Shown in pieces: positions 8,760 to 53,908 of a DNA stretch of 54,046 bases. Position numbers and translations under genes: made by a program. The DNA is taken from NCBI GenBank assembly GCA_014382375.1, contig JACNJU010000050.1:1-54046 (forward strand), in the 5' to 3' direction. Every line of letters begins with the position of its first letter. The stretch's first letter is position 1. The notes beneath the pieces were generated by a model. That model was not told the DNA's origin, ran no database searches, and was given only the letters and a program-made list of their open reading frames with translations. The DNA is from Rhodospirillaceae bacterium. GTDB lineage: Bacteria > Pseudomonadota > Alphaproteobacteria > Rhodospirillales > JABHCV01.

Positions 8760-9857
8760 ATGGCTGATGAAGACGACGCCCAAAAAACAGAAGACCCGAC
8801 TGACAAGCGAAAAGAAAAGTCGAGGAGTGATGGTCAGGTTGCTTCTTCCCAGGAAATCAAAAGCTGGATGTCTCTGCTTGGCGGCGCTTTCGGCCTGCTG
8901 GTTCTGGCTCCCGGCATAGCAACTGACATCCGTTTGATCGGTGCCAAATTCATTCTTTCGCCTGAAGCAATCCCCCTTGACCGGGACCATATACAACTCC
9001 TGTTTTTCCAGGTCTTTATTGATTTATCCATGGCGATTGGGCCATTCCTGATGCTCTTGCTGCTGCTTGCCTTTGTCTCCAGTGTCGGCCAGACAGGTTT
9101 CATCTGGGCACCCAAAAAAATAGCTCCCGATTTAAGCAAGATCAGTCTCCTGAAAGGGGCGAAGCGGTTGTTCTCGCTGCGCTCCGTCAATGAATTCGCC
9201 AAAGGCTTGTTAAAACTGTCTTTGGTCACGATCGTTGGATTGACCGTGGCGGGGCCGTTTATGACCGATATGTCGTTGTTCCTGGAACGCCCCCTGAGCG
9301 CCATGCTGGACCGCTTGTTGCAAATCTCTGTGTGGTTCACACTGGCTTCTGTTGGCGTTATGGCAGTAATTGCCAGCCTCGATTTCGCTTATCAGAAATA
9401 TACCCAGAAAAAAGAAATGATGATGAGCAAGCAGGAGGTCAAGGACGAGAACAAGCAGTCAGAAGGTGACCCGCAGGTGAAGGCCCGTATTCGCCAGATT
9501 CGCATGGAGCGGGCCCAGCAAAGGATGATGGCATCGGTGCCTGATGCCGATGTTGTGATCACCAACCCGACACATTACGCGATCGCCCTGAAATACAAGA
9601 TGGCCGATATGCAAGCCCCGGTGCTGGTTGCCAAGGGTGTCGACACGGTGGCTGCGAAAATTCGCGAAGTCGCTGATGAAAATGATATTCCGATTGTCGA
9701 AAATCCCCCCCTTGCGCGTGCCCTGTATGCTTCTGTTGAGCTTGATGAAGAAGTCCCCGAGGAACATTATATGGCGGTTGCCGAAGTGATCGGTTATGTC
9801 ATGCGTCTGCGTGGTGACTTGCCGCCGCAGCAGGTAATAGAGCCGGGGCCACAGTGA
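8760..9857 (+). CDS. flhB: Flagellar export switch protein FlhB
   Basis: 365 residues. A hydrophilic N-terminus (DDAQKTEDPTDKRKEKSRSD), four membrane segments (about 30-205), a linker helix, then the cytoplasmic autocleaving domain with the conserved NPTH (in VVITNPTHYAIAL, about 260-272). FlhB sets export specificity and changes it after cleavage between Asn and Pro. A second copy of only its C-terminal domain is encoded at 5801-6247. The stop overlaps the cckA start by 4 bases (GTGA). Confidence 0.97.
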   Translation: MADEDDAQKTEDPTDKRKEKSRSDGQVASSQEIKSWMSLLGGAFGLLVLAPGIATDIRLIGAKFILSPEAIPLDRDHIQLLFFQVFIDLSMAIGPFLMLLLLLAFVSSVGQTGFIWAPKKIAPDLSKISLLKGAKRLFSLRSVNEFAKGLLKLSLVTIVGLTVAGPFMTDMSLFLERPLSAMLDRLLQISVWFTLASVGVMAVIASLDFAYQKYTQKKEMMMSKQEVKDENKQSEGDPQVKARIRQIRMERAQQRMMASVPDADVVITNPTHYAIALKYKMADMQAPVLVAKGVDTVAAKIREVADENDIPIVENPPLARALYASVELDEEVPEEHYMAVAEVIGYVMRLRGDLPPQQVIEPGPQ

Positions 9858-12394
9858 AAAATGAGCCGTTAACACAGGATGAAGTGAGCAGAGCGAGCCT
9901 GGCCTTTGGGGTTCCTCGCCAATTAATTTACGGCATCGGCTTTTGCCTGCTTGGCGTCATTGCCGTGCTTGGCGCACTTAATGCTACTGGCGCGTTCCTG
10001 GCGATCATGACGGCCCTTGCCGGGGCGACCCTGGCGGCGGCCCTGTGGTCGTTTTATCAATTGCTGCGCGGAGCCTCTGTAGAGAGCATTGTCGCCGCCG
10101 CCATCGATAACAGTGGCGAGGCTGTCTTCGTAACCGCCTTGCCGGTTGATGGTGAGACCCCGCTGACCTATGCCAATCCCGCCTTTTTTTCACTGTTTCC
10201 GCCGCCGGTTAAAAATTTAGCTGCTCTGGCGCAATTGCTGGAAGGCGGGGAGAGCGCCCTAGATGAATTTGCCCGCCTGCGGGCCACGGCCAATGCCGGT
10301 GGAGCCGGTCATAGTGAACTGTCGATCAAAGGTGCATCAGGGGCGCTTGAATGGCGCAGGATATCGGTCCAGCCTTTTCAAATACCGGGAAACCGGCAGG
10401 GTCATGTCTTGTGGCGCAGCCGGGACATCACGGCGCGGCGCGAGATGGACGCGGCACGGGCGCGGGAAGGGGAAACATTCGCCGATTATCTGGATAATCT
10501 CCCGGCCGCCTTTTTTTCGGCTGACGCGGACGGCAACATTCTTTACGCCAACAACAAGTTTGTTGAGTGGTTAGGGGTGACAGCCGAAGATCTGCGCGCC
10601 CGTAATTTGCGTTTTTCGGATTTCGTCGTCGCCGGAAGTGCGGATGCTGCCCCCGGGTCTTCGGAATCAGGGGTTAGCGGCGATGTGACCCTGCGCGGAC
10701 CCGGTGGCAGTCTGTTCAAGGCTTGCCTTGTGCAGTCTGAACAGGTCGACGAAAACGGCGAGATGATGTACAGCCGTTCAGTACTGCTCAGGGATTTGAC
10801 CTGGCGCGGTGAGACCGGGGTGCAGGGATTGCCGATGTCCTCCGCGACCGGTAATTCCCATAAACTGCGCTGGTTGTTTGACGAGGCACCGGTCGGCATC
10901 GTGCTGCTCGATCTACAGGGCAATGTGACGGAGTCCAACCGGGCCTTTTTGAAACTGCGCGGCATTCATCAGGACTCGGTCATTGGCAGGCCGTTTTCCG
11001 AACAAATCAGCAAGGAAGACCGCGGCGATGTAGCGGCCCAGTTATCGAAGGTCGTGATGGGGATCATGCCGGCATCACATCTTGAAGTTCGTATGCCGGC
11101 CATGGGCGAGCGGGAACTGGTGGCCTCACTTTATGCCAGCCGTCTAGAGGATGATTCAGGCGAGGTCTCGGGCCTGGTCCTGCACTTTATCGACACCACA
11201 GAACACAAGAACCTGGAGGTGCAATTCGCCCAGTCTCAGAAAATGCAGGCCGTCGGCCAGTTGGCCGGGGGTGTGGCCCATGACTTCAATAACCTGCTGA
11301 CCGCGATGATTGGCTTCTCCGACTTGCTGTTGATGCGTCATGGGCCCGACGATCCGTCCTTTTCCGATATTCAGCAAATCAAGCAGAACGCCAACCGGGC
11401 GACAAATCTTGTTCGCCAGTTGCTGGCTTTCTCACGCCAGCAGGAGCTGGAGCCGGTGATCCTTGATGTCACCGAAGCCCTGTCGGACCTGTCCAATTTG
11501 CTGGGCCGCCTGATCGGCGAGAATATGGAACTGCAAATGAACCACCAGCGCGATTTGTGGTTGCTGAAAGTCGACCGGGGCCAATTCGATCAGGTCATTA
11601 TCAACCTGACCGTCAATGCCCGCGATGCCATGCCCGGCGGCGGTGCGGTTTCGATCAGAACAGCCAATATCAACATCAGTGAAGCCACCCAGCGCGGTCA
11701 CGAGGTTATGCGGGCTGATGATTATGTCCTGGTCGAGGTTTCTGACAGTGGCGTCGGCATCGCCAAGGAAGATCTGTCGCGTATTTTCGAGCCGTTCTTC
11801 TCGACCAAGGAAGTCGGTGCCGGAACGGGCCTTGGTCTGTCGACCGTCTACGGCATTATCCATCAGACCGGCGGCTATATCTTCGTCGACAGCGCCCCTG
11901 GTGAAGGCACCACGTTCAGCATTTACCTGCCGCGTTTCATCGCCGATGAAGAAGCCGCGGCTGAGCTTGCGACCGCACCTTCAATCATCCACGCTGACGG
12001 GGGCAGCGAAGGGGACCTGACCGGCGAGGGCACGGTGTTGCTGGTTGAGGACGACGACGCGGTCCGCATGTTTGGCGCGCGCGCCCTGCGCAACAAGGGC
12101 TATCAGGTTCTCGAGGCGGGCGACGGCGAGGAGGCGCTGGACGTTATCAACAACGGCTCCAACCAAATCATCGACCTGATCATTTCAGACGTCGTCATGC
12201 CCGGCATGGATGGCCACACCCTGGTCCAGCTGGTCCGCCACGAAATGCCGACGATCAAGATTATTCTGATGTCAGGCTACTCCGAGGACGTCTTCGCCGA
12301 AGACGTCGAACGCGACACCAGCATCGAATTCCTGGCCAAGCCGTTCAGCCTGAAAGACCTGGCCGGCAAGGTCAAGGATGTGATGGGCGGGTAG
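9854..12394 (+). CDS. cckA: CckA-type hybrid sensor histidine kinase
   Basis: 846 residues, GTG start overlapping the flhB stop. Two N-terminal membrane segments (about 22-70), several PAS-like domains (about 75-460), a HisKA helix with the phospho-acceptor His476 in [11 protein letters not shown], a HATPase domain (N box [31 protein letters not shown]), and a C-terminal receiver with Asp779 (ISDVVMPG) and a late Lys (FLAKPF). This order and the HDFNNLL box are typical of CckA, which feeds phosphate to ChpT and then to CtrA and CpdR and switches between kinase and phosphatase. Its place at the end of a flagellar export operon with CtrA-like boxes suggests a feedback loop (inference). It could be another PAS hybrid kinase, but CckA fits best. 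Confidence 0.87.
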
Positions 12395-26011: not shown

Positions 26012-29000
26012 GTGGCGCAGTCAGGTTTGTCCCAGATACCCGTGGAGTCCGCCCCGAGCCCGCATGTCCTGCAGGCCATTGACGGCGGCATGCTGACCAT
26101 CCCTGGCGATGCGTGGCTGCTTAAGGCCGACTTTTCACCGCAAGGCCCCGACCTTCTGTTGAGCGGCCCTGATGGTACGCAAGTTCTGATCCGTGACTTC
26201 TTTAATCTTGAAAATCCACCTGACCTTCTGACAGATACAGGGGCCATGATTACCGCCGATCTGGCGATTAATCTGGCTGGCCCGCTGGCACCGGGCCAAA
26301 GCGCCTCGGCCCTGGATGATCAACTGGCGCAAGCCGCAGAGTCCATTGGCCGGGTCGAGGCGACGGACGGGCTGGTTGAGGCGATCCGCGTTGACGGTAC
26401 AAAAGTTACGCTTTCCAAAGGTGACGACATTTTCCAGGGCGATACCCTGATCACCGCCAAGGGTGCGGCCATTGGTATTACTTTTATCGATGACACGACC
26501 TTCTCACTGGGCGAGGAAGGCCGCATGGTTATCGACGAAATGGTCTATGACGGCGATACCCAGGAAGGCCAATTCAGCGCCAATCTGATACAAGGCGTGT
26601 TCTCGTTTGTCAGTGGTGAAATCGCCAAGACATCACCGGAAGGCATGACGGTGACGACACCGGTGGCGACCATCGGTATCCGCGGCACCAAGGTCGCTGG
26701 CCGAGCGGCCCAGGAAGGGGCTGAGAACACCATTTCATTGCTCCCTGAAACCGATGCTCAAGGGGTCCAGATCGTCGGTGAACTGTCAGTAACCAATCAG
26801 GGCGGCACGGTGACTCTAAATTCGGTTGGGGCGACGGTGCAGATGAGCAGCGCTTTCCAGCCACCGCCGCCGCCGGTAACGTTCAGTCAGCAGCAACTTC
26901 AACAAAATTACGGCGCCGCCCTGACGACCTTGTCGACAACGGCAGCGGCAAAGGCCACCGCCGACGCGGCCGAGGGCGCCGCAGAGGCGGAGCAGGCCGA
27001 AGCAGACGCGCAAGCAGCCGAAGCCGAAGCCGAAGCTGCGGCGGCTGAGGCCGAAGCGGCCCAGGCCGAAGCGGACGCGGCGCAAGCCGAAGCCGAAGCC
27101 AGCGGTGATCCTGAAGCCATCGCCGCAGCAGAAGCAGCGCAGGCGGAAGCTGAAGCCAAGGCTGCGGAAGCCGAGGCCAAGGCAGCAGAAGCCGAAACGG
27201 CCATCCAGGAAGCAGAAGCCAAAGCCCAGGAAGCGCAAGTTGCACAAGCCGAGGCCGAACACGCAACCAACGAAATGCAGGCCCAGGCTCAGGCCTTTCA
27301 GGCGTTTGGCGGCCCGCCACCGGGTGAAAGCCCGGTGCCCGTAGAGGGAGCGCCGGAAAGCGATGGCGATAGCCCGGTGGACGCTGTTTCGCAGGCAGAC
27401 AACGGCGGCGATACTTTTAATGGCGACAGCCCGTTCGGTGGCGGCGATACTTTTGACGGCGGTGGTGATGTCTTGTTCGGTAGCGGCGACAGCCTTTTCG
27501 GCGACGGCCTGTCACTTTTGGGTGGCGGTGGTGGTGATCTTTTTGGAGGCTCGTTGTTGGCCCCCCCGGCAGGCGGTGACACACTATTGTTTGGTTATGA
27601 ACCTCTGCCGCCGGATTTCTTTGCGACGGAGATTTTTGACGCGCCCCCGCCAGATGATCCCATCCTGCTTCTCGATGAACCCAGTGACATCGTGATAGGC
27701 AACGCAGCCCCGACGGTGTCACTGTCCGTTGACAGCACCCAGACCCCGGCCTTTACCAATAGCGGTGCCACAACCTTTGACAGTCTCGTAACCAATTCTT
27801 TCGGGGAGGGCGCCAGTGAAATTATCGATGTCGACAATGACGGCGACATGGATATCGTTATTCACGGCTATGATTCCGTCGTCGGGACAAACCCCGCCAG
27901 TACGTCTGTCGGCCTGAATGACGGCAGCGGTACCTTCACTTACAGCACCGTCCTTGCCAACAGCCTTTTTACGCACGGCATGGATATGGCTGACGTTAAC
28001 GCTGACGGCAATGTCGATATTGTCTTCGCCCAAAACAGCGCCACCGCGCAACCGGTCTATTTAGGCGACGGGATCGGCGGGTTCTCGGTTTTAACGCAGA
28101 ACAATACCATAAACACGACGGGCGGCACGATCGGTGGAAACAATGTCGACCTTGCCGATTTTAACGGTGATGGCCTAACGGACATGTTCGTCAATGTCGA
28201 TGCCGGTGCCAAGGTTTACCTGAACGCCCAAAACGGTGATGCTGCCGGCCAATTCACCGATACCGGTCAGTCGTTAACGTCAACGAAGACCGCGCAAAGT
28301 TATCGTGCGCTGGCCACGGGCGACATCGACGGCGACGGCGACATTGATGCCGTCACCGGTAGTTGGGCCGAGAAAATGGATATCTGGGTCAACGATGGCA
28401 CCGGCACGTTCTCGAATACCGGGGTGGATGGCACCGGTCGGTTGAGCGTTCTTGGTGTCGATAACACCACATGGGGGGCCACCAATGGCGTCGCCCTGGG
28501 TGATGTGGACGGTGACGGCGATTTGGACATCGTGGCCTTCAACCGCTATGTCGCCAACAAGGTTTTCCTCAACGACGGAACGGGAAACTTTACCGAAGGC
28601 ACGCCCTTCGGGAATCTTGTCGGCAGCGGCGATGGCACTTTGGCGGACATTGACGGCGATGGCGATCTGGACGCTATAGATGCCGGTTACGGTGGGGTGG
28701 TAGTGTCCACCAACGATGGCACGGGTACTTTCACCCCACAAGCTCATACATATTCTACTACCAGTTCGGATCATGTCCAAACCGGCGATCTCAACGGCGA
28801 TGGCTTTACGGACATCCTGGTCGGTCGTAGTGGTGCCGGCAGCGATATCCTGACCAACGACCTGTCGAACGCCACTGTCCTTCAGGCCAATACCTTAACC
28901 TTCCAGCAGAGTAATTTTGGCATTACCGATCCTGACAATCCGGCCAACAGCAGTCTTGTTATTACGGTCTTATCGGTTCCTGCGAACGGAAGTATCGCCT

Positions 29001-30103
29001 TGAACGGCACCGCATTATCGGCTTTTGGCACTTTTACCCAAGCCGATGTCATCGCCGGGCTTGTCACCTACACCCATTCGGGAACAGCGACGACGATCGA
29101 TAGTTTCCAGTTCAACGTCTCCGACGGCCTGGGCGGCCTCAGTGCGACCACAACTTTCAAACTAGCGGTCACCAGCAACAGCGGCAACGACACCCTGACC
29201 GGTGGAACCGGCAACGACACCCTGACGGGCGGCACAGGTAACGACACCATTAACGGTGTTTCGGGTACGGACACGGCAGTCCTGAGTGGCCCCAAAGCTA
29301 ATTACACCTATGCTTTTGCCGCCAATGGAGACCTGACCCTGACTGACACAGTCGGGACGGACGGAACCGATACCATCTCCAACGTTGATACACTGACATT
29401 CAGCGATGGCAGTGTTGGCATCACCAGCGCAAAAACCATTACCGGTGATTCCGGGGTCGACACGATAACCGCCACCGACGCTTCGAGTATCAGCACCTTT
29501 GGCGGTAATGATTCGATCACTGTCAACGGAACAACGGCGGGCACCCTGACCGGTGGTACGGGTACTGACAGCTTTTATCTTTCGGGCACGACGGGCGCGC
29601 AAACAATCCGCTTTACCACGTCTACTGACGGTGCAACGACGGCAGACAGTGTGCCAGCGCGCGATCAGATTTTTGGTTTCACTCAAGGCACGGATAAGAT
29701 CGGAATATCCGGGTCTCTGGCATCAATGATAGATGATGGTGGGGCTGCAGATGGCGTTATTTCCTGGGCAAACAATGCAGCCGTGGATTTCACGAGTACC
29801 CATGAAGCGCTATTCGTAACCGATAGTTCAAATTTCGCTGGCTATACTGGACAGGGCGGGTTCCCGGGATTATTGGCAGGTATTATCAACGGTATCGGTA
29901 TTACCACCGCTTCTGGTGATGATGGACTTATTGTCGCCAACGCCACCGGGGCCAGTGCCGGAGGCGGCGCCGGCATTTTCTATTTCCAGGAAAGTGACTC
30001 AATCTTGAATAATGTCTCCGCAAGTGAGCTGACCTATATAGCTTCCATTGAAACGACAGCCATTTCTTCAGCCATTACAACTGACATAACCATTGTTGCT
30101 TAG
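26012..30103 (+). CDS. Giant exported FecR / FG-GAP / RTX protein
   Basis: 1363 residues, GTG start with a strong GGGAGG ribosome site. Order: an unusual N-terminal part (1-120), a FecR-like domain (about 124-230, TTPVATIGIRGTKV), an Ala/Glu coiled-coil-like stretch (about 309-430), a Gly/Asp-rich stretch (about 465-526), seven FG-GAP/VCBS calcium loops of the DxDGDGDxD type (about 605-947), a cadherin-like segment (about 957-1052), three GNDTLTGGT-type RTX nonapeptides (1058-1084) and a C-terminal domain. I see no cysteine and no Sec signal, which fits type I secretion. Seven loops suggest a seven-blade propeller. A surface adhesin or matrix protein is likely. No type I export genes are in the window. 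The stop overlaps the convergent gene by 4 bases. Confidence 0.85.
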   Translation: MAQSGLSQIPVESAPSPHVLQAIDGGMLTIPGDAWLLKADFSPQGPDLLLSGPDGTQVLIRDFFNLENPPDLLTDTGAMITADLAINLAGPLAPGQSASALDDQLAQAAESIGRVEATDGLVEAIRVDGTKVTLSKGDDIFQGDTLITAKGAAIGITFIDDTTFSLGEEGRMVIDEMVYDGDTQEGQFSANLIQGVFSFVSGEIAKTSPEGMTVTTPVATIGIRGTKVAGRAAQEGAENTISLLPETDAQGVQIVGELSVTNQGGTVTLNSVGATVQMSSAFQPPPPPVTFSQQQLQQNYGAALTTLSTTAAAKATADAAEGAAEAEQAEADAQAAEAEAEAAAAEAEAAQAEADAAQAEAEASGDPEAIAAAEAAQAEAEAKAAEAEAKAAEAETAIQEAEAKAQEAQVAQAEAEHATNEMQAQAQAFQAFGGPPPGESPVPVEGAPESDGDSPVDAVSQADNGGDTFNGDSPFGGGDTFDGGGDVLFGSGDSLFGDGLSLLGGGGGDLFGGSLLAPPAGGDTLLFGYEPLPPDFFATEIFDAPPPDDPILLLDEPSDIVIGNAAPTVSLSVDSTQTPAFTNSGATTFDSLVTNSFGEGASEIIDVDNDGDMDIVIHGYDSVVGTNPASTSVGLNDGSGTFTYSTVLANSLFTHGMDMADVNADGNVDIVFAQNSATAQPVYLGDGIGGFSVLTQNNTINTTGGTIGGNNVDLADFNGDGLTDMFVNVDAGAKVYLNAQNGDAAGQFTDTGQSLTSTKTAQSYRALATGDIDGDGDIDAVTGSWAEKMDIWVNDGTGTFSNTGVDGTGRLSVLGVDNTTWGATNGVALGDVDGDGDLDIVAFNRYVANKVFLNDGTGNFTEGTPFGNLVGSGDGTLADIDGDGDLDAIDAGYGGVVVSTNDGTGTFTPQAHTYSTTSSDHVQTGDLNGDGFTDILVGRSGAGSDILTNDLSNATVLQANTLTFQQSNFGITDPDNPANSSLVITVLSVPANGSIALNGTALSAFGTFTQADVIAGLVTYTHSGTATTIDSFQFNVSDGLGGLSATTTFKLAVTSNSGNDTLTGGTGNDTLTGGTGNDTINGVSGTDTAVLSGPKANYTYAFAANGDLTLTDTVGTDGTDTISNVDTLTFSDGSVGITSAKTITGDSGVDTITATDASSISTFGGNDSITVNGTTAGTLTGGTGTDSFYLSGTTGAQTIRFTTSTDGATTADSVPARDQIFGFTQGTDKIGISGSLASMIDDGGAADGVISWANNAAVDFTSTHEALFVTDSSNFAGYTGQGGFPGLLAGIINGIGITTASGDDGLIVANATGASAGGGAGIFYFQESDSILNNVSASELTYIASIETTAISSAITTDITIVA
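26935..27300 (+). repeat. Low-complexity Ala/Glu repeat region
   Basis: GC-rich repeats of the type GCNGARGCN encode runs of Ala-Glu-Ala (AEAEAEAAAAEAEAAQAEAD and similar). The coding strand is read through without stops and gives a long charged helix, probably a stalk between the FecR domain and the propeller. Such repeats are prone to length change between strains. Confidence 0.7.
29183..29263 (+). repeat. Three tandem 27-base RTX repeats
   Basis: Three near-identical 27-base units at 29183-29209, 29210-29236 and 29237-29263, each encoding a GNDTLTGGT-type nonapeptide (calcium-binding RTX/hemolysin repeat; the third is diverged). Nearly identical units point to recent duplication. Confidence 0.85.
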
Positions 30104-42399: not shown

Positions 42400-42723
42400 A
42401 TGATCATCACCACCACTGACTCCGTCGAAGGGCGCAGCGTCAGTTCTTATTGTGGAATTGTTTCGGGTGAAGCCGTTATGGGCACCAATATCTTTCGCGA
42501 CATGTTCGCCGGTATCCGCGATATCGTCGGTGGCCGTTCAGGTTCTTATGAAAAAGAACTGAAAAATGCAAAAACCCTGTCCATCGAGGCGATGATGGCT
42601 GAGGCCGAAGAGATGGGTGCGGACGCCATTGTCGGCGTTGATCTGGACTACGAAGCCCTGGGCGGCAATGACAAATCCATGCTGATGGTGACGGCCAACG
42701 GGACGGCGGTTAAACTGGTCTGA
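42400..42723 (+). CDS. YbjQ-family (DUF74) protein
   Basis: 107 residues. The pattern GRSGSYEKELKNAK and AEEMGADAIVGVDLDYEAL with a final MLMVTANGTAVKL is the YbjQ/DUF74 signature; members form pentamers and were once called heavy-metal-binding. The AGGA-type site precedes the ATG, and it is likely co-transcribed with pepF. Function in this organism is unknown. Confidence 0.88.
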   Translation: MIITTTDSVEGRSVSSYCGIVSGEAVMGTNIFRDMFAGIRDIVGGRSGSYEKELKNAKTLSIEAMMAEAEEMGADAIVGVDLDYEALGGNDKSMLMVTANGTAVKLV

Positions 42724-42738: not shown

Positions 42739-43137
42739 TCAGTATCTTTTGCCTTTTACGTAGGGCTTGAGCTTCATATCTTCATTTATGACGTGATCGA
42801 TAAGCCAATCGTGTAGAAATTTACTGACTTTACCAATGTCGATACTTTTTTCTTTTGTCAGGCTTTTGTGAAAGTCATCCATAGAGTCGATCAGTATCGT
42901 GTGTTGATCTGCATGGGCGCGACGATCAGGATAATGGACTGCCTCCATCAGGTTCTGTTCCCGTTCAAAATGTGAATGGGCGTATTCGACAAGGCCGTTG
43001 AAGGCATCTTCAAGAATAACCGGATTTTTTTGCTGGACGGCAATTTCATATTGATTGATCAGGACGAAAAGTTTTTTGTGATCATCGTCAATAAAATCGT
43101 TTCCTACAGACAGGCTATCACGCCATTCAATTGACAT
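42739..43137 (-). CDS. Bacteriohemerythrin
   Basis: 132 residues from the ATG at 43137, preceded by GAGG; the upstream ATG at 43173 adds residues without a ribosome site. All iron ligands of the four-helix fold are present: His in VGNDFIDDDHKKLF, His and Glu in HSHFEREQNLM (HxxxE), HADQH, and His and Asp in DWLIDHVINEDMK. Such proteins bind O2 reversibly through a di-iron centre and can act as sensors or carriers. It is the last gene of a leftward group with a DivK-like receiver and a decayed hemerythrin. The region is AT-richer than its surroundings. Confidence 0.93.
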   Translation of the reverse strand: MSIEWRDSLSVGNDFIDDDHKKLFVLINQYEIAVQQKNPVILEDAFNGLVEYAHSHFEREQNLMEAVHYPDRRAHADQHTILIDSMDDFHKSLTKEKSIDIGKVSKFLHDWLIDHVINEDMKLKPYVKGKRY

Positions 43138-43234
43138 TTTTCGACCTCTTGCATTTTTGATTTTGAAGGTCACCTGGATACTATGGTGCTCAACGCTTTC
43201 TTAACATTGACGATTATCAAATTCCGACAGAAGG

Positions 43235-43600
43235 TCAGAGTAAATGCTTTTCCACAGTCTCAAGAAACAAGGGTACTAAAATAGGTTTCCCAACAGCGTC
43301 GTCACAGCCAGCAGCAAGTATTTTTTCGATGCCCCCATCAAGGGCGAAGGCGGTCACAGCGACCACCGGAATATCTTTCAGGTCGTCATCTGCTTTCAAT
43401 TCCCTGGTCCGATCCAGACCTGAAACCAGTGGCAACTGGATGTCCATAACAACAAGGTTGGGGCGGTATTTTCTTGCCAATTCCAAGGTGTCCGCACCGT
43501 CGACAGATTGCAGGGTGTTGTAGCCATTGGCTTGAAGCAACTCGTTGAATAACCTCATGTTTTTGGGGTCGTCTTCAACGATGAGAATTGTTTTTGCCAT
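43235..43600 (-). CDS. Single-domain response regulator, DivK-like
   Basis: 121 residues, only a receiver domain. Acidic pocket Glu9-Asp10-Asp11, phosphorylation site Asp53 (VVMDIQLP), Thr83 and Lys105 are all present. The segments NMRLFNELLQANGYNTLQ (about 14-31) and DDDLKDIPVVAVTAFA (about 71-86) closely follow DivK of alphaproteobacteria. DivK couples to the CckA-CtrA pathway through DivL and PleC. Here the gene sits 9 bases after a hemerythrin remnant and 97 bases before an intact hemerythrin, an unusual setting, so it may be a paralogue carrying an oxygen or redox input. No kinase is adjacent. Confidence 0.85.
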   Translation of the reverse strand: MAKTILIVEDDPKNMRLFNELLQANGYNTLQSVDGADTLELARKYRPNLVVMDIQLPLVSGLDRTRELKADDDLKDIPVVAVTAFALDGGIEKILAAGCDDAVGKPILVPLFLETVEKHLL

Positions 43601-43609
43601 TACCGGTCC

Positions 43610-43948
43610 TTAAGTATTGTGCACAATAGAATATTTTGATACCGGCAAAAACTTGCCCGCTGTTTCGATTTTTTCAAGAGCCAGCATGATATCCTGCTCT
43701 TCCCCTTTTGTGTAATGGCCAATTTTGGTGCCGATGTTCTGAATGCGATCAACCAGCCAGTCAGTTAAAAACTTTCGAAGGTGGTCGGTAATTTCCGGAC
43801 TTTGCCGCTTGCGCCATTCATCTTCCCGTTCGTAGATCTGTGTTGATAAAATATGGTGCTGGTCCCGATGCTCATCAATTTCGGGAAAATTGCAAGCTTC
43901 CATAACCACCTCTTCACGGGTGAAATGATAACGAGTGTAGTCAATCGG
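43610..43948 (-). pseudogene. Decayed hemerythrin, N-terminus and key ligands missing
   Basis: The annotated frame can begin at GTG 43909, but in-frame codons run on to 43948 and encode DYTRYHFTREE, so the remaining hemerythrin helix B is intact upstream of that start. A stop (TGA) at 43949-43951 and another farther up close the frame; only about 55 bases separate it from the next gene, so the first helix with its His ligand is absent. In the last helix the His is Arg and the Asp is Gly (DWLVDRIQNIG versus DWLIDHVINED in the neighbour). The HFxREE and HRDQHH ligands remain. This looks like a truncated, degenerate paralogue; a repurposed helical protein cannot be excluded. Confidence 0.75.
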
Positions 43949-44005
43949 TCAATAAAGTGGATTTTTTTAAATTAGGTCACCTGACAAAGTCGTATCTGAA
44001 TGGTC

Positions 44006-45310
44006 CTACCAGTACTTCATTGCAGCCTGGTAAATTTCGGCCAGGTTTTCCTCGCTGACTGGGCAGGGGGCCTGCGCCAGTAGCCGTTGCTGGGCGTAGG
44101 AGCCTTTAACAAGGGCCGGGATGTCGTCATCGGTGTAGCCTATTTCAGCAAGACCGCTAGGCAGTCCTGTGGCGCGCATCATGTCACTTAAACGCAAGGC
44201 CAATAGCTCACCACCGTCAGCAGGTGCAGCGTTTGATATATCGGCACCCAGCGCAGCGGCGGCATGCAGATGACGCTCAGGCCCGGCAGGTCCGGTAAAA
44301 CGGAAGGCCGCCGGGGCGTTAATCACTACCGACAACCCATGAGGGACCATGGGGTTTGCGTTCTCGTATCCTTTGGCCACGTACTCATGGTTCAGACCAG
44401 CGACCGAATAGGACATGGCGTGTGGAATGTGAACGCCAGCGTTGCCGAAGGCTTGTCCGGCAAGGGTAGCGGCGAACATCAGGTGGTGGCGGGCTTCAAT
44501 ATTGTCCGGCTCGCAGACGGCGGCAACCAGATGTTCCCCACCAATACGAATGGCGGCCTCTGCGCCAATGTCTGAAAAAGGGTTGGCCCCCTGATAGGGC
44601 GGACGTGCGCCAAGGGCCGGTTTTTCGCGTGTCCTGTAGGGCCGGGCGGTAAAGGATTCAATGGCGTGGGTGAGCACATCAAAGCCTGTTGCGGCAATCA
44701 CACCTGCGGGCAGGCTTTCGGTGGTAACCGGATCAACCAGGGCCAGGGCCGGGCGCAGGTGAACTGATGAAATGCCTGTCTTGACCTGCTCGCGAACCAG
44801 ATCGAAAACGGCGACGCCAGTGGTTTCGCTACCCGTGCCGCAGGTTGTCGGGCAGGCAATATGTGGTTTGATCGGCCCCGGCACCGGCTTAGCCTGTCCG
44901 ATGGGTGCGTTGACGTAGGCCATCAGATCATCGGGGTATGTTGCCAACAGGTTGGCAATTTTGGCGGTATCAATGACTGAGCCACCGCCGAGCGATATGT
45001 AGCCATCGAAACTGCCTTCACTGGCGAACTGGGCTGCGATCCTGAAACTGTCGTCTGTCGGCTCAACCTTGACCGCGTCAAAGACAACCGTTTCGACCCC
45101 GGCTGCCTGAAGGGCGTCCAGGGCTGTTTTCAACGGTTCTGTTTCAACCACGTGCTCGTCGGTGAACAAGGCGGCGCGAGTGATCCCCAGGCGCTTGGCG
45201 TCGTCCCCCAGTTCGTTTAATGCCCCAGGGCCGTATTTGATGGTCGAGGCCGGAACGGTGAAAACGGTTTCGCCATTGGCAAGGGCGGGGAAGGCTGTTG
45301 AAGGGCTCAT
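44006..45310 (-). CDS. Hydroxyacid-oxoacid transhydrogenase-like Fe-dependent dehydrogenase
   Basis: 434 residues from the ATG at 45310 with AGGA upstream. It is a type III iron-dependent alcohol dehydrogenase with YISLGGGSVIDTAK (nucleotide binding), PTTCGTGSETTGVAVFD and the metal-ligand His residues near AGVHIPHAMSYSV. By eye the whole chain follows ADHFE1/HOT, the enzyme that moves hydride from 4-hydroxybutyrate to 2-oxoglutarate (PTDDSFRIA, NAPIGQAKPVPGP, AYQGxNPFSD, VPHGLSVVINAPAAF). It is divergent from a creatinase 104 bases away. It lies upstream of the hemerythrin remnant on the same strand. Confidence 0.88.
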   Translation of the reverse strand: MSPSTAFPALANGETVFTVPASTIKYGPGALNELGDDAKRLGITRAALFTDEHVVETEPLKTALDALQAAGVETVVFDAVKVEPTDDSFRIAAQFASEGSFDGYISLGGGSVIDTAKIANLLATYPDDLMAYVNAPIGQAKPVPGPIKPHIACPTTCGTGSETTGVAVFDLVREQVKTGISSVHLRPALALVDPVTTESLPAGVIAATGFDVLTHAIESFTARPYRTREKPALGARPPYQGANPFSDIGAEAAIRIGGEHLVAAVCEPDNIEARHHLMFAATLAGQAFGNAGVHIPHAMSYSVAGLNHEYVAKGYENANPMVPHGLSVVINAPAAFRFTGPAGPERHLHAAAALGADISNAAPADGGELLALRLSDMMRATGLPSGLAEIGYTDDDIPALVKGSYAQQRLLAQAPCPVSEENLAEIYQAAMKYW

Positions 45311-45337
45311 TCTGGCTATCCTTGATACGTCATGATA

Positions 45338-45355
45338 GGTCGCATACGGTCGCAT
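45338..45355. promoter_or_regulatory. Tandem repeat GGTCGCAT with 10-base spacing
   Basis: GGTCGCAT occurs at 45338-45345 and 45348-45355, one helical turn apart, between the divergent dehydrogenase and creatinase genes. Same-face tandem sites of this kind are typical regulator targets. No regulator gene is next to it. Confidence 0.45.
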
Positions 45356-51050: not shown

Positions 51051-51076
51051 GTTTTAAAATTTGGTTTTAAATTATG
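51051..51076 (+). repeat. Imperfect tandem 13-base AT-rich repeat at the kinase start
   Basis: GTTTTAAAATTTG followed by GTTTTAAATTATG, the second copy running into the start codon. No ribosome site is seen; the repeat may replace or mask it. Confidence 0.35.
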
Positions 51077-53908
51077 AGCATGTCTGGTGGCAGCATTGCG
51101 CGAAGAACTCTGGTCAAACTGGCCGTTCGCGTTGCCCTTATCATCTTCGCAATGACCAGTTTGGCATACTTCCATATATTCCAGCTTGTCACCGAAACCT
51201 CCCTTGAAAAACTTGAAAAGTACACCATCGAGCGCCAGCAAAGGGAGCGCCACATATTCCAGCTTGCCGAAGAAAATCATGAAACGATAAAAGCAAAATT
51301 GTTAAAGCGATTAAAAAAATTTGCAAACAACGACCCCAAAGACGCCTTCAATAAATTGTTTACGCGCTTTCCTGATGGGGTCATACGAAACCGGCTTGAA
51401 AATTTTGACGGCACCAATCAGTCATTTGTGTACATTGATAAATCGATCCAGCCCGATTCTGACCTTCGCCGCCGTATTATGGCCTTTTATGAAATTGGCA
51501 ACCAGTATGGGCCAGCCTGGATGAACAGGTTCGAGAACCTTTATTTTACAACCCCGGAAAATATTCTAGTTGGTTACTATCCTGATGTGCCGAATTACGC
51601 ACATGAATCAGGCCCCGACCTGAACATGCTTGAAGAAGAATGGTTATGGATCGCCGACAAGGAACATGACCCGCTTCGCGAAACTGTCTGGACCGGAACG
51701 CTGTATGACCCTCGCGCTGAATTGTGGCTGATTTCAAGCGAGACTCCCGTAGATGTTGACGGCCAACATATCGCCACCATCGGTCAGGATTTCAAGCTAA
51801 ATGACCTTATGCATAGATCCGTCGAAGATCATCTGGAAGGCGCTTACAACATCATTTTCCGAAAAGATGGGCGGCTGATAGCCCACCCTAAACAAATGGA
51901 AGTTATAAAGGCCAAGGGTGGGGCCTTTAACATTTCTGAAAGCAATGATTCGAACTTAAATAGAATTTTTAATCTGGTAATCAATCGCGACGATAAAAGT
52001 ATCATTATTGAAAATACAGTTGATGACGAGTTCCTGTCTGTGGGCTCACTTGACGAACCTGACTGGTTTTTTGTTACGGTCTATCCCAAAAGCATGATTT
52101 CAGGGGTTGCATTCGAAGCTGCACAGATCGTCCTTATTCTTGGGTTTTTATCGTTATTGGCGGAGCTGGTGATTTTCTATTTGATCATCAGGCACGACAT
52201 ATCTATTCCATTACAGCTTCTGATTTCCGCTACGGATGAAATTTCTGACGGCAACCTTCAGGTAAGCATTACCTCTGCTCATGATGACGAAATTGGTCTT
52301 TTATCCAACTCCTTCAATAAGATGGCTTTCTCAATTGAAGAAAAAACAAATGAACTGAGAGGGGTTCAAGCTGACCTTGAAAAAAGGGTAGCAGAACGCA
52401 CCTCCGAATTGTTGAAAAGCGAACGAGGGTTGGCTAAAGCACAAAAACTTGCCCACATCGGCAGTTGGGAATGGGATATACAGGGGAATAAACTAAATTG
52501 GTCTGAAGAAACTTTTCGCCTATTCGAACTCGACCCGGCCAAGAGCGAACCCGATTTCGAGGGCGTCATGAGTTACATTCATCCTGATGATGTTGAGACA
52601 CTAACGCGAGCGATTTCCAGGACAGTCGAGCAGGGCATTCCCCTTGACCTTGAGTACAAGATCATCACGAACGAGAAAAATATCCGGGCTGTTCATGCTC
52701 TCGGTGAAGTTATCAATAGTAAGGATGGTTCACCCTTGCATATGTATGGCACCATTCAGGACATCACGGATAACAAAAAGAAGGAGGAAGATCTTCGCAA
52801 GCTCACACAGGCTCTCGAACAAAGCCCGAATGCCCTTTTCATTACTGATCTAAACGGTAATATTGAATACATCAATCCTAAGTTCACTGACTTAACAGGA
52901 TATACGCGAGAAGAGTCCATTGGCAAAAATCCACGTATCCTCAAATCAGAGGAAACGCCAAGAAAACTATATTCCGATCTTTGGAGGACCATTCGTAGAG
53001 GTGATCAATGGAAAAGCGAAATTATGGACCGTCATAAAAACGGGAGCTATTTCTGGGCATACGAGACCGTTGTGCCTGTAAAGGATGAACAAGGCTTTAT
53101 AACAAACTACGTGGCCACGCATGAGGATATTACTGAACGCAAGAATGCCGAGTTAGCTGCGCAATCAGCGCTGGAACAGGCGGAGATTGCCAACAGAGCG
53201 AAGTCTGAGTTGATGGCCAACATGAGCCACGAGTTACGCACGCCACTCAATGCCATCATTGGCTTTTCTGAAACGATGAAGGAAGAAACATTCGGTTCCG
53301 TCGGCAGTGATAAAAACCGTGAATATCTGGACGACATCCATCTGTCTGGCCTGCATCTTCTTGAACTGATTAACGACATTCTCGATGTTTCAGCAATCGA
53401 GGCAAATGCTCTGGAATTGCACGAAGAGAATGTCAATATTGCAGCTGTCATTGAGGCTTCTGTTCGACTCGTTAAGCCTCGGGCGGAAACCGGGCGGATA
53501 ACCATTACCACTTCTGTCAATCCTGAAATTTCAATGATTCATGTAGATGAGCGACGGTTTAAGCAAGTCTTGCTCAATCTGCTGAGCAACGCGATCAAGT
53601 TTTCGCAGGAAAATGGGGAGGTCTCCGTAAATGTAAATTTGACGGAGGACGGCCCCTTGGCGATTTCCGTTTCCGATAACGGTATAGGCATGAATGAAGA
53701 TGAAATAAAACTGGCCTTGAGTTCTTTCGGTCAAGTGGACAGCGGACTTAACCGTATGCATGAAGGAACAGGTCTGGGCCTGCCCCTGACCAAGGGGCTG
53801 ATGGAACTTCACGGTGGATATTTGGAAATCAATAGTGAGAAAGGCAAGGGAACAAAAATAACAGTGTTTTTCCCGAAGGAGCGCATTCTGGAGTCAGAAA
53901 CGGGCTAA
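51074..53908 (+). CDS. Membrane PAS/HAMP sensor histidine kinase
   Basis: 944 residues. First membrane segment about 14-38; an extracytoplasmic dCache-like sensor (about 40-340); second membrane segment about 345-375; HAMP (about 380-430); two PAS domains (about 455-570 and 575-695, second ending THEDITERK); HisKA with His719 in MANMSHELRTPLNAIIGF; HATPase with N box LLNLLSNAIKF, SDNGIGM, and GTGLGLPLTKGL. It lacks a receiver, so it must signal to a separate response regulator; none is adjacent. Start has no ribosome site. The gene is AT-richer than the transhydrogenase genes, with more Asn, Lys and Ile codons, which may mean acquisition. Ligand is unknown. Confidence 0.93.
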   Translation: MSMSGGSIARRTLVKLAVRVALIIFAMTSLAYFHIFQLVTETSLEKLEKYTIERQQRERHIFQLAEENHETIKAKLLKRLKKFANNDPKDAFNKLFTRFPDGVIRNRLENFDGTNQSFVYIDKSIQPDSDLRRRIMAFYEIGNQYGPAWMNRFENLYFTTPENILVGYYPDVPNYAHESGPDLNMLEEEWLWIADKEHDPLRETVWTGTLYDPRAELWLISSETPVDVDGQHIATIGQDFKLNDLMHRSVEDHLEGAYNIIFRKDGRLIAHPKQMEVIKAKGGAFNISESNDSNLNRIFNLVINRDDKSIIIENTVDDEFLSVGSLDEPDWFFVTVYPKSMISGVAFEAAQIVLILGFLSLLAELVIFYLIIRHDISIPLQLLISATDEISDGNLQVSITSAHDDEIGLLSNSFNKMAFSIEEKTNELRGVQADLEKRVAERTSELLKSERGLAKAQKLAHIGSWEWDIQGNKLNWSEETFRLFELDPAKSEPDFEGVMSYIHPDDVETLTRAISRTVEQGIPLDLEYKIITNEKNIRAVHALGEVINSKDGSPLHMYGTIQDITDNKKKEEDLRKLTQALEQSPNALFITDLNGNIEYINPKFTDLTGYTREESIGKNPRILKSEETPRKLYSDLWRTIRRGDQWKSEIMDRHKNGSYFWAYETVVPVKDEQGFITNYVATHEDITERKNAELAAQSALEQAEIANRAKSELMANMSHELRTPLNAIIGFSETMKEETFGSVGSDKNREYLDDIHLSGLHLLELINDILDVSAIEANALELHEENVNIAAVIEASVRLVKPRAETGRITITTSVNPEISMIHVDERRFKQVLLNLLSNAIKFSQENGEVSVNVNLTEDGPLAISVSDNGIGMNEDEIKLALSSFGQVDSGLNRMHEGTGLGLPLTKGLMELHGGYLEINSEKGKGTKITVFFPKERILESETG

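Follow-up and report, generated by a model that had tools for sequence, protein, structure and literature searches.

Hemerythrin beside a DivK-like receiver in a Rhodospirillaceae bacterium: probable leftovers of a two-component operon and a recurrent link in relatives

In the 54,046-nucleotide stretch of Rhodospirillaceae DNA analysed here (hereafter the window), three small genes lie in a row on the minus strand, namely a truncated hemerythrin (Hr), a DivK-like receiver and a complete bacteriohemerythrin. The locus raises the question of whether this grouping is more than chance and whether it links oxygen or redox state to DivK-type control of the cell cycle or motility, as an earlier note made from the sequence had suggested. 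The grouping itself, which that note had described, was confirmed by the frames, the strands and the profile matches. Of the 39 receiver matches in the genome, two have an Hr match no more than 3 kb away, one of the two being this locus, and the receiver-Hr order is retained in the sister species (G001); the grouping is more than chance. In the same genome, a second receiver-Hr pair is found on contig C71 (L012), where a 330-aa receiver protein is followed by an Hr that ends at the contig end. Elsewhere in the window, positions 26012-30103 encode a 1363-aa protein with FecR, FG-GAP repeats, a cadherin-like domain and an Ala/Glu-rich stretch.

The three genes of the locus

The complete single-domain bacteriohemerythrin (42739..43173, minus strand, with ATG 43137 as the likelier start) scored 107.5 bits with NCBIfam NF033749, above the curated cut-off of 84, and all seven diiron ligand positions were found in the alignment as H, HxxxE, HxxxH and HxxxxD, which we take to be the Hr diiron ligand motif. 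It is 90% identical to the sister-species copy (dN/dS 0.070), its best solved relative is DcrH of Desulfovibrio, and a conserved gene for a YbjQ-type protein (42400..42723, plus strand) flanks the locus on this side.

The truncated Hr (frame 43610..43948, minus strand) matched PF01814 over positions 44-118 of 127 with 29.1 bits (cut-off 25.3), or 30.2 bits with one upstream TGA read as W. The frame begins inside helix B and helix A is missing; HxxxE and HxxxH are retained in the alignment, and helix D reads DRIQNIG, compared to DHVINED in the complete Hr, so that the His and Asp of helix D are lost and the set of seven diiron ligand positions is incomplete. The PF01814 coverage and the alignment thus bore out the earlier description of a frame lacking helix A and both helix D ligands. 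GTG 43909 is the first start codon of a usual type, and a product made from it is without the helix B ligands as well and reaches 35.7 bits with the NCBIfam bacteriohemerythrin model, below its curated cut-off of 84. In a search of 60 relatives, eight of its 11 best matches outside its own locus lay in frames of 608-921 aa, and nine of ten such loci checked with Pfam were HisKA-HATPase-Hr kinases with the Hr domain at the C-terminus, the tenth (L111) being cut by the contig start. The N-terminal parts of these nine kinases vary, comprising PAS, dCache, 5TMR, LuxQ-periplasmic, Tll0287, SBP_bac_3 and GAF domains. In the window, this Hr tail lies directly upstream of the receiver, and both its place and its sequence are as in the sister species. 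Judged by these matches, the truncated Hr most likely once formed the end of a histidine kinase that has been lost. An origin as a copy of the neighbouring Hr was considered and rejected, since the match to that gene was 37% (E = 3.2e-11) compared to 45% (E = 1.9e-25) for a kinase-tail Hr domain.

The receiver (43235..43600, minus strand, 121 aa) scored 76.3 bits with PF00072 and contains the phosphosite residues D53, T83 and K105. It had been said to follow DivK closely, which holds insofar as Caulobacter DivK (1m5t) is its best solved relative (E = 3.7e-36), but the same genome carries a closer DivK on contig C59 (85/116 residues identical to Caulobacter DivK, versus 63/116 for the window receiver), and the two are 61% identical over 117 residues. 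The C59 gene adjoins a Crp-type regulator, as it does in the sister species. In a receiver tree of 59 rows, the analysis by which the earlier note proposed to tell an orthologous DivK from a paralogue, the window receiver was placed apart from the cluster of 19 rows in which Caulobacter DivK and the C59 copy sit (cluster support only 90/76), and paired with the sister-species copy and then with the copies of G174 and G185 (96/95), which makes it a paralogue. That it is the DivK of this genome was ruled out by the closer C59 copy together with this placement.

The output face differs as well. D90 and Y102 of DivK are replaced by G90 and A102, and the combination of G90 with no aromatic residue at 102 is common to the window, sister-species, G174 and G185 copies; among the best-scoring DivK-like receivers of 44 relatives (first copies, see below), D occupies position 90 in 43/44 and Y occupies position 102 in 43/44. 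The aromatic residue 102 of DivK has a role as a switch. For Caulobacter DivK, the excerpted text of PMC4505887 reports that the D90G variant fails to up-regulate PleC kinase and binds DivL poorly; with G90 and A102 in place, these defects make DivL-CckA signalling by the window receiver unlikely. Two further receiver loci were recorded: a third DivK-like receiver in the window genome (contig C158, L011 1501-1713) is a fragment with an internal stop and thus a pseudogene, lying before an M24 peptidase-like gene, and in G174 (L356 4007-7684) a PAS histidine kinase stands between two DivK-like receivers on the same strand, the upstream one being of the G90 type.

A kinase in the sister species and its absence from the window

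In the sister species, contig C50 holds, in order, the alcohol dehydrogenase, a 627-aa kinase, a scrap of Hr tail, the first part of the receiver and the beginning of a transposase-like frame, and contig C29 holds a transposase-like end, the remainder of the receiver, Hr, YbjQ and an M3 peptidase; the two contigs probably join inside the receiver at their transposase-like ends. Both transposase matches (E = 0.003 and 0.002) are short and fall below the Pfam cut-offs; one covers the initial 23 positions of HTH_Tnp_1 and the other the final 20 of rve_3, and by NCBIfam the second of these sequences is weakly near IS3 and IS481. The 627-aa kinase comprises a sensor domain, HisKA and HATPase, with no Hr.

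The iron-containing alcohol dehydrogenase (44006..45355, minus strand), a conserved flank, was used to line up the two species. The aligned DNA matches up to the dehydrogenase stop and then again from the Hr tail onward (window 44004-44233 at 88% and 43547-43718 at 77%), and the gap between the aligned blocks measures 2070 bases in G001 versus 285 in the window. The sister kinase occupies the place that corresponds to the junction at 43949..44005 and is absent from the window, where no HisKA-HATPase-Hr kinase lies next to the receiver. Elsewhere in the window genome, no orthologue of the sister kinase was found among 17 kinase-core matches (best 43%, core only), and the frames of all 11 Hr matches are shorter than 300 aa. 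The alignment and the missing orthologue suggest that the two species lost different parts, which would be the kinase in the window genome, and in G001 the bulk of the Hr domain along with the continuity of the receiver gene. That the sister kinase once carried an Hr domain is suggested by the tail scrap behind it, the kinase itself having none.

Between the two species, dN/dS was 0.093 for receiver codons 17-121, 0.068 for DivK and 0.033-0.122 across five further genes nearby. The receiver value indicates constraint over most of the period since the two species diverged, with a decay that is recent or incomplete, and the window receiver may still be working.

Recurrence of the hemerythrin-receiver link in relatives

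Relatives were searched with a custom receiver HMM (14 seeds, including the window receiver) and an Hr HMM (13 seeds), and the receiver with the best score was taken as the first copy. Matches at E = 1e-30 were obtained in 44 of 60 relatives, which form the first-copy set, and the search of the 60 relatives gave 54 DivK-like receivers; judging by the tree, one of the 44 first copies (G054 C34) is unlikely to be a true DivK. Flanks of about 4 kb were taken where contigs allowed, and 1.5 kb for the window genome's own DivK (L010). The second-copy set comprised at least 38 copies in at least 29 of 297 genomes of the order, some with shorter flanks, as in G109 C111, whose contig ends 956 bases past the receiver.

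An Hr domain was present within 3 kb of 18 of the 38 second copies listed, compared to a single one of the 44 first copies (Fisher P = 1.5e-6), and absent within this distance from the other 20; a search for Hr genes next to DivK-like receivers in other genomes had been proposed as a check, and the arrangement recurs. Compared to a chosen background of 6%, the 18/38 gave P = 1e-12. Twelve of the 18 linked receivers are fused to Hr or lie no more than 103 bases from it. Counted by genus, Hr-linked second copies occur in 9 of 15, in six families by our own grouping (compared to 1/40 for first copies, the 40 being rounded), and five of the 18 linked copies belong to a single genus (g43). The sole Hr-linked first copy (G059), which was retained in the count, owes its link to a chemoreceptor gene 2.7 kb away on the opposite strand, whose product ends in an Hr domain. 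This 831-aa chemoreceptor (L123 3306-5801; HAMP, MCP signal and Hr at the C-terminus) is oriented divergently to that DivK copy and has a DcrH-like layout.

The linked loci take several forms. In G116, identified by shared DNA as Thalassospiraceae CSMAG_1704, a 791-aa kinase with the order MHYT-PAS-HisKA-HATPase-Hr is followed by a DivK-like receiver, and in G025, likewise identified as Magnetovibrio blakemorei MV-1, a kinase-Hr lies beside such a receiver twice, on C20 (the kinase in two frames, then the receiver) and on C37 (the receiver, then the kinase-Hr). A receiver with a free Hr was seen in G124 C31, a receiver with an Hr remnant in the window and in G001 C8, and the sister locus of G001 with its interrupted receiver is a further form. 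In genus g43 the receiver lies roughly 2 kb away from the Hr portion of a PAS-GGDEF-Hr gene, its domains having been checked for G215 and G189. In this genus, DivK-like receivers occur near PAS-GGDEF-Hr and Hr genes at L349, L345, L344, L347 and L348, with three such receivers in G109. We presume that G215 may be Magnetospirillum magneticum AMB-1 and that the place of its receiver may be the magnetosome island. In Magnetospirillum gryphiswaldense, according to the excerpted text of PMC3197154, no phenotype was seen for two hemerythrin-like genes when the magnetosome-island region that includes them was deleted.

Receiver and Hr are fused in six genomes, G004, G009, G066 (frame cut short), G084, G124 and G138, of which G084 is Dive100_bin3.50, and G004, G066, G124 and G138 were identified by shared DNA as SI037_bin24, Dive96_bin1.131, NORP116 and NORP128, respectively. 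Five of the six fusions are above the Pfam Hr cut-off, and an Asp is aligned with the helix D His in four of five rows, the fifth row being incomplete. An AlphaFold2 model of one fusion, built with five sequences, had four long helices besides a receiver fold (mean pLDDT 84.8, pTM 0.65). The best solved match in a fold search with this model was DivK, covering the receiver half; the 50 matches listed were all receiver-domain proteins by title, and the search thus carries no information on the Hr half. Being small and probably soluble, the fusion protein would allow a direct test of the Hr-DivK question.

In a second scan covering 80 of 579 relatives, Hr was found in the stretch at 6 of 80 loci and at none of the other 74, and the six (G138, G004, G066, G116, G124 and G084) were already in the main set. 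Around seven Hr-tailed kinases fetched for their Hr alone (L109, L110, L112-L115 and L117), no receiver above 120 bits was found in the stretch, which in L110, L112 and L117 ends at most 0.8 kb downstream of the kinase; L113 has a 96-bit receiver 3.7 kb from it. The Hr-linked receivers fall into more than one clade of the 59-row tree (8 label changes, shuffled mean 12.7), and for this reason a single origin was rejected as a proven conclusion. The nearest well-supported neighbours of the window receiver, G174 and G185, are not Hr-linked. The many Hr genes in several of these genomes (32 first-look candidates in G025) also mean that some Hr neighbours arise by chance. Collectively, the link between Hr and DivK-like receivers is real and recurrent, and the window copy is a remnant of it.

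Interpretation and comparison with known systems

We read the three genes, with a probability of roughly 85%, as the leftovers of a two-component operon that encoded an Hr-tailed membrane kinase, a DivK-type receiver and a free bacteriohemerythrin. With all parts in place, the diiron Hr domain would bind O2 or NO, or change its redox state; this state would set the kinase/phosphatase balance of the HisKA-HATPase core, phosphate would pass to Asp53 of the receiver, and the receiver would act by binding partner proteins. In the window genome, the ligand-poor Hr tail remains and the frames of the receiver and the free Hr are intact; with the kinase not found and only its Hr tail left, the receiver would be an orphan, served by some other kinase of the PleC/DivJ/PdhS type or else heading for loss, for which the sister receiver, interrupted by transposase-like sequence, would offer a parallel. 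A 944-aa PAS histidine kinase (window 51074-53908), which the PdhS and DivJ models match far below cut-off, is a possible kinase for DivK-type receivers.

A mere chance meeting of three unrelated genes is scarcely credible: Hr genes are indeed common, about 2% of the window genome lying within 3 kb of one of its 11 matches, and more than half of the second copies listed (20/38) have no Hr that near, but the neighbourhood recurs in nine genera, also as fusions, and kinase-Hr and receiver pairs are found in G116 and G025. It is likewise very unlikely that the truncated Hr serves as a functional partner or a dominant-negative subunit of the complete Hr; its frame is open over 112 codons and keeps the helix B and C ligands, yet it lacks helix A and both helix D ligands, has no usual start codon before helix B and has only a scrap as its counterpart in the sister species.

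A working oxygen or redox input to the cell cycle, in which the free Hr acts on a receiver that behaves like DivK and regulates CckA through DivL, is improbable too. It would draw on the intact and long-constrained receiver frame, on two ChpT-type matches in the genome and on a CckA-like kinase in the window (9854-12394, preceded by an FlhB-type gene). The earlier statement that CckA is in the window holds as far as CckA is the best NCBIfam match, but the score of 733 bits is below the curated 1000, and the sharing of a 54-kb window by this kinase and the receiver is no evidence of a connection. Against such an input stand the closer DivK elsewhere in the genome, G90 in the receiver (the D90G variant being a poor DivL binder with no PleC kinase up-regulation in PMC4505887, as excerpted), A at position 102 where DivK has an aromatic residue, the kinase no longer beside the receiver, and the interrupted sister receiver. 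The proposal that this receiver feeds the CckA-CtrA pathway thus lost its support. The earlier note had named a closer DivK orthologue, together with a neighbourhood that recurs in no relative, as the outcome that would speak against it; the closer DivK exists on C59, but the neighbourhood does recur.

Under our preferred reading of an operon in decay, an oxygen or redox link to DivK-like receivers is sound as a general idea, given the recurrence in the sister species and in other families, but less so for this copy, with its kinase gone and a paralogue as receiver. As a speculation that we consider rather unlikely in its full form, Hr-gated DivK paralogues across the order, including magnetotactic species, may feed oxygen or NO level into the DivK-type motility and cell-cycle network, through kinase-Hr and receiver pairs and through receiver-Hr fusions with a changed diiron site (helix D His to Asp), and the subtype with G90 and without Y102 may be a specialised branch with its own partner. 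The oxygen-to-cell-cycle input is an unproven proposal; the fuller and fused versions in related bacteria make an oxygen or redox input to DivK-like proteins testable, and the kinase-Hr version has a cultured host in Magnetovibrio blakemorei MV-1. A repeated Hr-DivK-type link would connect oxygen or NO to cell-fate and motility regulators of alphaproteobacteria.

Prokaryotic Hr proteins are reportedly covered by French et al. 2008. In the excerpted text of Bailly et al. 2008 (PMC2556348), chimeric Hr proteins with a histidine kinase (n = 4) and with CheY-like domains (n = 4) are counted; these pairings are alike in principle, and neither DivK nor a kinase-receiver pairing is named in that excerpt. 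MCP and GGDEF are the commonest Hr partners in the excerpt of PMC4919030, and Hr joined to chemoreceptors and other signalling domains has been studied as an oxygen and redox sensor according to the review PMC9388753, in which a term search found neither "response regulator" nor "receiver". In keeping with the earlier remark that the arrangement is not a standard one, the literature search, on the records it returned, gave no paper with both "hemerythrin" and "DivK", although hemerythrin and "single domain response regulator" do co-occur in one. The domain pairings have thus been known and counted before, and the association with DivK paralogues is the new part, as far as the literature search reaches.

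Among known systems, the PleC/DivJ-DivK system of Caulobacter shares with this locus the DivK-type single-domain receiver with D53, T83 and K105, and the core of the sister kinase gives matches to DivJ and PdhS that fall far short of the model cut-offs; the locus differs in that the kinases of relatives carry a C-terminal Hr and the window receiver is a paralogue without D90 and Y102. PleC-DivK without DivJ is described for Magnetospirillum and Rhodospirillum in the excerpt of PMC2877005. Osp of Rhodobacter sphaeroides, a single-domain receiver that acts on CckA and is not DivK (PMC9430884), is alike in being a single-domain receiver, is presented in its abstract without a hemerythrin link, and is set beside the window receiver by description. 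DcrH, the Desulfovibrio chemotaxis protein, similarly carries Hr at the C-terminus of a membrane signalling protein, but its output is an MCP domain, whereas the output here is a kinase and a receiver.
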